DNA from: Aspidapion aeneum
Lineage: Eukaryota > Arthropoda > Insecta > Coleoptera > Brentidae
Direction of reading: 5' to 3'
Assembly (NCBI GenBank): GCA_963576565.1
Contig: OY755047.1
Coordinates: 7,844,931-7,908,930 of the forward strand
DNA: 64,000 nt
Within the stretch, counting starts at the first letter, position 1, and each line of letters begins with the position of its first letter. Positions 704 to 64,000 of this stretch are shown here, in pieces. The translations under genes and the position numbers were made by a program. Under the pieces are notes generated by a model. The model was not told the origin of the DNA and searched no databases. It saw nothing but the letters and a program-made list of their open reading frames with translations.

Positions 704-45186
<44,483 letters not shown>

Positions 45187-46967: not shown

Positions 46968-47690
46968 GTACGCCGATGATTTGACGTAACGAATACAAGA
47001 ATAAAATAATATTCATGCGTAAAAGTATAACCAATCAGGACATTTTATCTTAAGGACCGCAAAAAGGATAGACTTATATCCATTGATATTGCTATTTCAA
47101 ATATGTTTGCATTCTGCATTGTAAGGTACCGTAGGTATTGCAATAATACGTACTATATGGAAATAATATGGATATGTCTTTGAAAGCAACCAATCAGGTC
47201 GTTTTTGCTTAAAGACCCCAAGGCCCTCATGTTTGCATCATAAATGGGCAGTTGGAATATTATATATATGATGATATGTGTGTCAAATAATGTGAAAAAT
47301 TGTGTGTATATGCTCAAATATGTGTGCAATAATTTTTTAAGGCTATTTTTTGATTCTTTTGAAGCCAAAAAAAAAAATTCCTACTATTATTTTATAGAAT
47401 CTCTCCTTTTCACAATTTTTTTTTATAACTTGGTAGACTATGAAAACATAAAAAACCATAAAACTGTGATAATATTTAAAATTAAAAAAATAGATGAACC
47501 TCATTCAAATTTTTACCTCAGTACAATTTTGGAAGAAATAAAAACTGTTTAATAAAAATTTAAGAAATTAAGATAAAAATTGTGTCAAAGAATTTTAGTT
47601 TTTTGTAAAAATTTTTAAATTATTTTTAAGTAAATAAAAACTAATTAATAACAAAGCTTAACGCCTTATCAAGCTTAAATGTCATTTGTC
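46968..47690. other. Intergenic sequence
   Basis: AT-rich, no recognisable gene or repeat; short ORFs only. Confidence 0.5.
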
Positions 47691-48119
47691 CAGGGTGTCT
47701 CATTATATTTTTCCCACCCTTTTAGACCATTAATAATTGATGTAGGAATATAAAAGAAATTGTGTTCGAATTCGCCAAATTTTTACTTTCAAATTGCATC
47801 TTGACTTTATTCCTGATGCTTACCGTATTTGACAGGCGCTCAAATTTATAGTTTTTGTAAATTGGATGCTCTTTATATTATTTAATTAATAAATTAGGCT
47901 TGGAACATATTTTCCAAAAATACCCGATATGCCGTAGTTTAGAGCCATAGTTTCTGAGATATTAGCAATTATAACAGTACCGCTCTTGTGCTAATTTTAG
48001 TATCCTTATTCCAAATTATGTTAGTCCCCATGTATCAACAGTGACAATGACACAACTTTGTTGTCGTTACCGGTTGTCATTTTGAGCGTGATTAAAAAAA
48101 AAATAGTTGTCATTGTCAC

Positions 48120-48635
48120 GTTTGTTAGTATTATTTGGCTTAAAAATTCCGTTGATTGACGCTCACTGTCTTGATGACGGGTAAAAATGTAAAATGCGTT
48201 GATCCGGCCTGAAAAGACAAAGAGCTGTCGTAGGTCACGGACTATAGTTGTTTTCTTTTATTTGCATTCGATCTTTTCATTGATCGATATTGTATAGCAG
48301 TGTTTTTCCCTGCTTTTGGTTTTTTGTTTCTCTCGTATCTCGGTAGATGGCGCCTCTTGCTATAGTTCGCTCACTAATTACATTTAATTAGAGACCAAAC
48401 CGTCTGATTAACTTCGCAAGATTTGTCACTTGACCAGCAGTGTTCTGAGGAGTCCCATAAGGACGAAACCGTTAACTGTCAACACTTATTAGGTGTCCAT
48501 TAGATCTTGGACCCCCGTGAGGTTAAGCTTTCAAGCTACCCACGGAAAAATATAAGGGAAACAAAAAACTCCTTTTTACCCGATTAGCCATGAAACTTGT
48601 TTGATTTTTAAATTCACGGGTATGAAATTTCATGT
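48120..48635 (+). mobile_element. 516-bp hammerhead element, monomer
   Basis: Begins GTTTGTTAGTATTATTTGGC and ends GAAATTTCATGT, flanked by TTGTCATTGTCAC at 48107-48119 and 48636-48648. Its length equals the unit spacing of the multimer at 39.3-40.5 kb. It includes one hammerhead motif and no ORF. Confidence 0.86.
48439..48486 (+). ncRNA. Type I hammerhead motif, one stem III change
   Basis: Same as 40326-40373 except stem III reads ACCG/CTGT, giving one C-U mismatch in the 4-bp stem. The catalytic core is intact. Confidence 0.8.
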
Positions 48636-49172
48636 TTGTCATTGTCACTGTTTATACATGGGGACTAACATAATTCGAAATAAGGACACTGAAATTAACA
48701 CAACAGTGGTAATGTTATTTTTTTATCATTTAAAAATTTATCGCTAATATTTCAGAAACTATTTATTAAAACTGCGACATAAGGGGTATTTTTGGAAAGT
48801 ATATTTCAAGTCTAATCGATTAATTAAATAATATAAGGAGCATCCAATTTACAAAAACTATAAATTTGAGCGCCTGTCAAATATGGTAAGCATCAGGAAT
48901 AAAGTCAAGATGCAATTTAAAAGTAAATATTTCGCGAATTTAAACACAATTTCTTGTATATTCCTATATCAATTACTAATGGTCTAAAATGGTGGGAAAA
49001 AATATAATGAGACACCCTGTACATAGTAGATAGATTATTTTAAAATCTTAAAACTAATTTTAGGTATGTTTTTTTTTTAATTATTAGTTTTTAATATTTT
49101 TGTGTTTTAGCAAATCCAAACTGTATAATATTTTTTTGAGTGAAAGACTGTATTACAGGGTCTATAGTTGAC

Positions 49173-49851
49173 ACAAGACGCTAGCGCTACCAAGTCCACT
49201 TCCAATCCCTGGCTTCGCATGCGTAGATCTACCAATATTATTTACCTCATGTATTAGAATCGATGTACAGGGTGATTTTCACTTGAATGATTCTAACCAC
49301 ATGAAAATAGAAAGTTTCAAAAACCTAACCTAACAAAACCTAATCAGATCTAACCGAACCGAACCAAAGCAAACTAAACCAATATTTTTTTTCAAAAAAA
49401 AAAACTTTCCTGACTTCCTACCTGGGATGCTAGAGGATATGAATCCGAACCGGACCGTACCGAACCGAACCTATCCAAACCTAACCCTACCCAACTAAAC
49501 CTAATTAGCAGTACGTGTTGTAGTTTAGTTTGGATAGGTTAGTTTTGGTTTAGTTTAGTTAAATTCGGTTTGGTTCGGTTCGGATTCACATCCTCTAGGA
49601 TCCCGGGCAGGAAGTCAGGAAAGTTTTTTTTTTGAAAAAAATTGTTGGTTCAGTTTCCTTCGGTTCGGTTAGATTTGATTAGGTTTTGTTAGGTTAGGTT
49701 TTTGAAACTTTCTATTTTCATGTGGTTAGAATCATTCAAGTGAAAATCACCCTGTATGCATCTATTCTAAGACATGAGGTAAATAATATTGGTAGATCTG
49801 CGCTTGCGAAGCCAGGGATTGAAAGTGGACTTGGTAGCGCTAGCGTCTTGT
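49173..49851. mobile_element. MULE-like fold-back element A2, 9-bp target duplication
   Basis: Termini ACAAGACGCTAGCGCTACC and inverse, flanked by ATAGTTGAC (49164-49172, 49852-49860). 679 bp. Preserves the empty site for the element nested in A1. Arms contain degenerate telomere-like CCTAACC/CCGAACC repeats. Confidence 0.88.
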
Positions 49852-62514: not shown

Positions 62515-62586
62515 GCTTCGGTGGTTCAGTGGTAAGAATGTTTGCCTAGATAGCAAGAGACCCGGGTTCGATTCCCGGCCGAAGCA
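62515..62586 (+). tRNA. tRNA-Gly-like gene with an AGA anticodon loop
   Basis: The 72-nt segment folds as a cloverleaf. Acceptor stem GCTTCGG/CCGAAGC, D arm GGTTCAGTGGTAAGAAT, anticodon stem TTTGC/GCAAG with loop CTAGATA, short variable loop AGAC, T arm CCGGG-TTCGATT-CCCGG, discriminator A. The A box (GGTTCAGTGGTAAG) and B box (GGTTCGATTCC) are intact and a TTTTTT terminator follows within 10 nt. The body is typical of eukaryotic tRNA-Gly, but the loop places AGA at 34-36, a serine anticodon, without a serine-type long variable arm. It may be a variant or decayed tRNA-Gly or the head of a SINE. Confidence 0.75.
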
Positions 62587-62772
62587 GAAAACTTTTTTCT
62601 TATTTTTCTTTCTTTAATTTCACTTGTTGTTTATAGTTTTAGGTCCTTGCATTATTTGCAATTTGGTATTTGATAAAGTCACGGTTATCAAAAAGGAAAA
62701 AACATATGTGTATTTTAATGTTATGCTACATGCTGTCAAATGCTTTGTTGTAATCTCTAATGCAATACTTAC

Positions 62773-63002
62773 TATTGTTAATGACTACGGCATTCAACAG
62801 TCCTTTTCCTCTAATGGTGATGGCTATTTTTTTGTCTAGACCTCTCTGTAGTTCTTTCCTAAAAATGTCTCCCATATTTCTTGATCTTTCAGCGAGTTTT
62901 TCATCTTCCAAAACGTCTAAAGCTGTAATTGCTACTTTAGAACCTAGTGGGTTTCCACCGAACGTTGAACCATGGGTACCTAAAAGAATTGGTCTATTTA
63001 AG
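62773..63002 (-). CDS. Oat: Ornithine aminotransferase, penultimate coding exon
   Basis: The donor is gtaagt immediately below 62773. The exon encodes THGSTFGGNPLGSKVAITAL, then DVLEDEKLAERSRNMGDIFR and IRGKGLLNAVVIN. HGST(Y/F)GGNPLG is the OAT signature downstream of the PLP lysine, and RGKGLLNA is also diagnostic. The 5' boundary is uncertain: cttatag ending at 63003 or ttcttttag ending at 62980 both work as acceptors, and the second would start at GTHGST. The catalytic lysine and N-terminal exons are beyond the window or displaced by the LINE fragment that begins at about 63010. Confidence 0.88.
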
Positions 63003-63009
63003 CTATAAG

Positions 63010-64000
63010 AAAAATGATAAAAGAAAAAACTCAGAGCTACAACCTGAAATAAGCAAAGCGGAAATAAAGAGAGCATTAAAGAAAATGAAAAATTACAAAT
63101 CACCTGGAAAAGACGGAGTAACGGCAGAAATGCTCAAATACGATGGTAAAGCTGTAGTTAGTACCCTACTGAATAAAATACTATACTAAAAGAAATACTC
63201 TGCCAATCTATGGGCACCTAAACTCACACTAGGTACTATAGTTATAGTGTACGTGTCAGCTAATATAACTAGAAACTGAAATATATTTTATTGAACTCCA
63301 GACTCAATTACCTTTTGTTTGATACCACACAAGCCATGTTTTGACTTAAACTTTAATTTTTCAAATTTACCCCCACCTTTTTTTTTAAACTAAAATTTAT
63401 TTTGTTTAACTCCAGACTCAATTACCTTTCGTTTGATATCACACACGCCATATTTCCACATAAACACTAATTTTTTTAATTTACCCCCACCCTTTTTTTA
63501 AAAGTAAAATGTATTTTATTTAACTCCAGACGCAATTACCTTTCGTTTGATATGACACACGCCATATTTTTACATAAACTCTAATTTTTGAAATATACCC
63601 CCATCCTTTTATTTGGCTTGTGTTTGGTAGATTTTGTTCATTTTTAAATGGGACCATTTCGACCCAAAACCCAGCGTAGGTACCAAATTTCATTAAAATC
63701 GGTAAAAGCGGTTTTTGAGTTATGCGCGTTGGTCGTTACAGACAGACAGACAGACAGACGGCGCAACAAAAAAGTTTCAAAATCATCTGAAACGCAAAGA
63801 TATATAAAAAATTTTGAAATCGGAGCAAATTTTTTTTTCTCGAAAAAATTAGGATCACTATAGCTCATACTACTATAGTATAGTAGTAGTGTGAGCTAAA
63901 AATAATCCCAAACAACTGGAAAGAATCAATAACCATTATTCTACAGAAGAAAGGCGATAGAACAGACCGAAAAAACTATCCACCTATAACACTGCTCAAT
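63010..64000 (+). mobile_element. RTE/CR1-like LINE RT fragment split by H4
   Basis: 63010-63189 encodes NSELQPEISKAEIKRALKKM, KNYKSPGKDGVTAEML, and resumes at 63899 with IPNNWKESITIILQKKGDRT, DRKNYPPITLLN up to the window end. Normal RT order, interrupted only by the Helitron-like element. Confidence 0.85.
63193..63898 (+). mobile_element. Helitron/HINE-like element, copy H4
   Basis: AAATACTCTGCCAATCTATG to GTGTGAGCTAA, three 110-bp repeats, short GACA run at 63739-63758, hairpins at both ends. Its insertion into the LINE gives independent limits for the family. Confidence 0.7.

Follow-up and report, generated by a model that had tools for sequence, protein, structure and literature searches.

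The 514-nt hammerhead repeat described here, from a 64,000-nucleotide stretch of Aspidapion aeneum DNA (the window) and from a sample of the same genome, is probably a non-autonomous retrozyme whose RNA circle is copied by a Penelope-like enzyme from both strands of a cut target. The structure of its insertions, their two end sites, the pairing of these sites, the target duplications, the single variant in each insertion and the conservation of the ribozyme can all be read from the sequence. These scars bear on which enzyme moves animal retrozymes, with a pattern of the Penelope-like element (PLE) type at many insertions, and the unit is short enough for every lap to be read.

The assembly that holds the window (1.286 Gb in 149 contigs) was searched twice. 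The first search gave at least 105 matches from the 40 scored of 359 candidate places, and the second, with a diverged copy as query, gave at least 82 from the 40 scored of 2375, a sample biased to close relatives. The preliminary description of this DNA had proposed a retrozyme with target duplication, copied from circular or multimeric RNA, and the genome-wide search for 516-bp units supports this at many loci, where there are arrays that repeat every 514 bp and target duplications of 10-15 bp. Besides the two window copies, 52 loci were mapped, comprising all 38 from the first search and 14 of the 37 further loci from the second; 13 stretches were also taken with longer flanks. The 14 were picked for pieces in both orientations, which biases the head-to-head share among them, but the pairing of end sites was no criterion; in the unselected first set, 23 of 40 clusters are head-to-head (hand count). 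Pieces separated by gaps of less than 60 nt were taken as one cluster, and nested insertions thus split some (L052, L075). Lap and ribozyme counts predate the last six loci and cover 51 clusters.

Two insertions in the window and their ribozymes

The preliminary description had placed a 516-bp element with no open reading frame between identical 13-bp flanks at 48.1 kb, and both statements hold (Table 1): the longest stop-to-stop frames that overlap the unit, of 78 and 63 aa, exit it. The unit is non-coding with a G+C content of 38.9%, in keeping with the low G+C of metazoan non-LTR retrozymes, and an open reading frame for a reverse transcriptase (RT) and GIY-YIG endonuclease, as in Penelope-like elements, is absent from it. 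In unit coordinates the copy begins at about 1 and ends at 516-520, within the site that we call B below. It interrupts one of the two arms of an inverted-repeat element; the second arm reads through and so preserves the empty site (329 of 387 positions identical). A clean monomer this copy is, but the form is atypical for the family, found in one of the 25 clusters with duplications of at least 10 bp.

The copy at 39.3 kb had been regarded as having a repeat unit that matches the monomer. The length agrees, since 516 fits its 514/518-bp spacing, but the copy is no direct repeat: its two arms are inverted head-to-head and share one base at their joint. Because the arms differ at 10 of 485 sites, an assembly fold-back is disfavoured as their origin. 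The insertion interrupts the reverse-transcriptase gene of a non-LTR retrotransposon, and joining the flanks with a single copy of the duplication yields an open RT stretch across the joint (RVT_1, E 1.3e-15). The RT fragment in the window has 68 relatives; 30 are named to species, and 27 of these are from beetles (Sitophilus, Coccinella, Cylas, Diorhabda and others; hand count).

Table 1. Retrozyme copies, duplications, ribozymes and target element in the window
Feature	Position	Strand	Remarks
Left target-site duplication, 39.3-kb copy	39294..39306		TTTTGCCTTACTA, 13 bp
Left arm, 39.3-kb copy	39307..39888	-	582 nt (1.13 laps), antisense on + strand; outer end site B
Type I hammerhead, left arm	39460..39507	-	helix III of four pairs
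Right arm, 39.3-kb copy	39889..40494	+	606 nt (1.17 laps), sense; outer end site A
Type I hammerhead, right arm	40326..40373	+	helix III of four pairs
Right target-site duplication, 39.3-kb copy	40495..40507		TTTTGCCTTACTA, 13 bp
Inverted-repeat element (target), left arm	47687..48052	+	target sequence without insert; empty-site witness
Left target-site duplication, 48.1-kb copy	48107..48119		TTGTCATTGTCAC, 13 bp
Retrozyme monomer	48120..48635	+	516 bp, a single lap of the 514-nt unit
Type I hammerhead, monomer	48439..48486	+	predicted cut after C48480; C-U mismatch in helix III
Right target-site duplication, 48.1-kb copy	48636..48648		13 bp, identical to TTGTCATTGTCAC copy
Inverted-repeat element, right arm	48637..49023	-	entered by the retrozyme

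The type I hammerhead core reported earlier was recovered, with a descriptor of this type matching exactly three times in the window, at 39501 (-), 40332 (+) and 48445 (+), and never in 100 first-order Markov copies of it. A search with the Rfam Hammerhead_1 covariance model agrees on all three, but at 23.5-24.7 bits they fall under the gathering score of 34. Helix III is made of four pairs with a UUAA loop in the 39.3-kb copies, whereas a C-U mismatch in the 48.1-kb copy leaves two pairs. As the other two ribozymes of the window lack this mismatch, the one at 48.1 kb is predicted to be the least effective. In the 39.3-kb form, the helix III strand of 12 nt is self-complementary along its whole length when G-U pairs are counted, so two such ribozymes could also cut as a dimer, as has been described for other hammerheads (PMC7229834). 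The common form of the family, with its four-pair helix III, is thus the canonical type I hammerhead of metazoan retrozymes and not the minimal hammerhead without helix III of Penelope-like elements.

Across the genome sample (51 clusters), the catalytic core is kept in 150 of 155 complete copies, and in 29 of the 51 clusters two or more hammerheads on one strand have an intact core and intact stems I and II. The hammerhead diverges less than the rest of the unit (77/7647 vs 1311/70083, with laps that are not independent of one another). The circular unit RNA showed no unusual predicted stability (z -1.7; 5 of 100 shuffles equally low). A hammerhead pattern scan of viral contigs gave no matches, and in a scan of genome contigs the hammerhead stem II pattern matched only once, on a contig of Candidatus Shapirobacteria (L001:2375-2399).

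Other repeats are found in the window. One tandem family of 113-119 bp forms four arrays (1-292, 1089-1403, 21565-21922 and 63273-63614), three of them followed by (ACAG)n, and they resemble a non-autonomous mobile element built round a central satellite. Two copies of a self-complementary foldback element, 94% identical and in opposite orientation (31851-32486 and 49192-49832), match a plant microRNA model below its threshold, and a 169-bp tandem repeat runs for 5.6 copies at 13045-13984. Apart from transposon fragments in the ten ORFs scanned, the only gene-like stretches seen are a tRNA gene (62515-62586) and an exon of a class-III aminotransferase (62726-63133; Pfam PF00202, E 1.7e-13).

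Two paired outer ends

With the predicted ribozyme cut after position 361 of the unit, the three outer ends in the window, at which cDNA synthesis must have begun, lie at 486-490 (right arm of the 39.3-kb copy), 516-520 (48.1-kb copy) and 520-525 (left arm of the 39.3-kb copy). As none of them is at the cut, a linear self-cut monomer is ruled out as the template; in the sample, one outer end (L060) is close to it. The outer ends of head-to-head clusters gather at two sites, site A at 481-498 (median 491, 32 ends) and site B at 518-540 (median 523.5, 34 ends), about 33 nt downstream of A.

The two sites are used as a pair. Among 37 head-to-head clusters, 28 have one end at A and one at B, one has A at both ends, none has B at both, and eight have an end elsewhere; one of these eight looks like an A+B pair split by a later insertion (L052) and another ran past the retrieved stretch (L054). 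The 28 of 37 have the form of Penelope-like insertions, which are inverted head-to-head and carry, at one of their ends, a tail of about 31-40 nt. Six loci were taken after the A and B windows had been fixed, and all five of their two-ended clusters are A+B. The 20 single-orientation clusters end ten times at A and ten times at B. If, as modelled on these, A and B were used equally and independently in each arm, at least 28 mixed pairs among 29 would arise with a probability of about 6e-8, the loci being taken as independent.

Target duplications of at least 10 bp, 10-15 bp long, flank 25 of 58 uncut clusters as against 9 of 1143 permuted flank pairs, and so exceed the 4 bp above which they are counted in metazoan retrozymes. 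Every head-to-head pair with such a duplication (24 of 24) is A+B, and the 25th cluster is the 48.1-kb monomer. In the other 33 of the 58 a duplication of this length is missing, perhaps through decay or nested insertions or because their ends are of other types.

The inner ends behave differently from the outer ones. They are scattered: the A and B windows hold 11 of 76 (about 9 expected), and 2 of 76 lie within 10 nt of the ribozyme cut. Their positions look random and take no account of that cut. An apparent fixed 5' end at unit position ~452 proved to be an artefact of query ends, and inner ends vary once mapped. Inner joints, arm lengths and lap numbers likewise change from insertion to insertion, and an inner joint shared across many insertions is absent from the sampled loci, which is hard to reconcile with a DNA transposon or foldback element that has inverted repeats and carries the hammerhead as a passenger. 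Such an element would offer inverted arms, defined outer ends and duplications, and the 48.1-kb copy does sit inside an inverted-repeat element, but the 20 single-orientation clusters and the position of the outer ends, at two sites of one sense strand with no terminal inverted repeat, also speak against it. We consider this explanation highly improbable.

Template and enzyme

Laps of the 39.3-kb copy differ by a C/T variant, which argues against a single template there; the variant lies in a possible CpG, and informative non-CpG sites were therefore used to compare templates. At 24 such sites, discordance is 4.3% between laps of one arm and 4.0% between arms, as against 28.3% between insertions. 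Overall, the median difference is 1.8% both within and across arms and 3.9% from one insertion to another. Often the nearest other insertion is no more distant than a sister lap, probably because young copies stay near the family's common sequence, so shared variants are the better test of one template. The array L013/L014 has 21 laps in two arms, ~12.5 one way and ~7.8 the other, which differ by 0.35% both within and across arms. One variant per insertion is as expected if a single RNA circle were copied by rolling, and many-lap insertions with a single variant would then testify, at the sequence level, to reverse transcription that rolls round RNA circles.

Many laps could also come, with no circle at all, from a long linear RNA transcribed across a homogeneous tandem array. 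Arrays of this kind exist (L013/L014, L054), and a lizard PLE used uncut RNA in vitro, where ribozyme mutants inserted equally well (PMC11167929). Against such a template stand the single variant in both arms, over up to 21 laps, and the 48.1-kb copy, which starts and stops within ~10 nt of one unit position (~4% by chance). Intact ribozymes, moreover, should cut long multimers, and we regard a linear template as rather unlikely.

With a circular template, the insertions could arise as follows. Transcripts with at least two same-strand hammerheads would cut themselves to unit length and be closed into circles. A Penelope-like RT/endonuclease would take up a single RNA of this kind, or sister RNAs from a common source, and cut the target with a stagger of ~12-13 nt, and the two target 3' ends would then act as primers within the RNA, at site A (unit ~491) in one case and at site B (~523) in the other. 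Each cDNA would run for 0.07 to ~13.6 laps round the template and stop anywhere, and the two, to judge from the scars, would be joined head-to-head. The 48.1-kb monomer would have come from a cDNA on one strand only that made almost exactly one lap. Self-cleavage, circularity and the identity of the enzyme are what we infer from these genomic traces.

The four junctions with the target in the window share 4-5 nt with the circle, whereas random pairs reach 4 nt in 2.4%, and sampled ends overlap the target by a mean of 4.3 nt (an automatic value that counts imperfect extensions). Such microhomology at primed ends, together with 10-15 bp duplications, fits insertion of the retrozyme by the enzyme of a LINE (non-LTR) element, fragments of which occur in the window, and the head-to-head pairs would then be products of L1-like twin priming. 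In L1 twin priming, one strand primes at the 3' tail of the RNA and the second at an arbitrary internal position. The retrozyme has two fixed starts, 33 nt apart and one per strand, both its arms can exceed a full lap, and no tail or repeat was found at the three cDNA starts in the window. Hammerhead repeats with 15-bp duplications in a sea anemone have been likened to LINEs (PMC4918200), but for the present family we hold a LINE enzyme to be quite unlikely.

Penelope-like elements and other retrozymes

GIY-YIG domains are frequent in this genome, with at least 91 matches from the 150 scored of 633 candidates. Two loci (L070, L071) carry a PLE-type RT and endonuclease by motif reading, and neither matches a minimal hammerhead descriptor. 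Three loci picked for paired opposite endonuclease matches (L078, L079, L080) are head-to-head inverted Penelope-like copies. One of them (L079, C1:117917100-117920200) has one arm ~38 nt longer than the other (by eye) and lies in a TA-rich target, a TA repeat in which a duplication is not readable. Among the pieces of five PLE loci, no partner with a matching start region was found; their matches to the unit are short and weak (best 23 nt, E 0.003), and three of the loci have none at E 0.01.

PLEs have been proposed as the movers of retrozymes on the basis of co-occurrence, shared hammerheads and tandem form (PMC7229834), and the scars can now be set beside what is reported of PLE integration. 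Rotifer PLE copies are bounded by inverted pseudo-LTRs, mostly head-to-head, some with duplications of 8-10 bp and with an optional 31-bp tail on one pseudo-LTR (PMC3846280). The PLE protein of a lizard is reported to cut both strands and extend them, and to use two neighbouring internal start sites that account for the tail (PMC11167929). The two-start pattern of the retrozyme has the same form, at 33 nt, and on these accounts the two have in common head-to-head inverted copies, a hammerhead, starts at internal sites on both strands and, at one end, a tail of 31-40 nt that may be missing (PMC3846280, PMC11167929). The retrozyme differs in having no RT/endonuclease gene, a full helix III, duplications of 12-13 bp as against 8-10 bp, and microhomology at its starts. 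The last point counts against a PLE, since the lizard enzyme is described as beginning RNA copying with no homology to the cut DNA (PMC11167929), whereas retrozyme ends overlap their target. That a Penelope-like enzyme regularly primes both target strands on a single RNA, at sites 33 nt apart, and rolls round a circle is a generalization for which we see the chances as even. If it is true, Penelope-type integration would follow A+B pairing as a rule in vivo, and the tail long known from these elements would have its explanation. With two start sites that are paired almost strictly, a step of PLE integration becomes testable in vitro.

The pDo500 repeat of Dolichopoda cave crickets has a unit of about 500 bp. 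It too is an insect repeat with a hammerhead, described in the sources as a satellite, and we liken it to the retrozyme by that description (PMC2837043, PMC2808323). The preliminary description had considered an insect family with so long a unit to be notable. Neither host nor length makes it strongly so, as hammerhead repeats of insects, including that of cave crickets, were already reported (PMC7229834, PMC2837043), although 514 nt is above the 170-400 nt given for animal units (PMC7229834). Animal retrozymes, their circles, their occurrence in insects and the proposal that PLEs mobilise them are likewise published (PMC7229834; reviews PMC7761336, PMC11722881), and in the literature covered, which is an incomplete selection, no description of head-to-head retrozyme insertions with paired start sites was found.

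The family is close to what is reported of metazoan non-LTR retrozymes (Cervera and de la Pena 2020, PMC7229834), with which it shares a type I hammerhead, no open reading frame, low G+C, tandem laps, target duplications of more than 4 bp and a proposed copying from circles. It differs from those in that account by its longer unit, and by insertions that are often head-to-head and bounded by two paired end sites.
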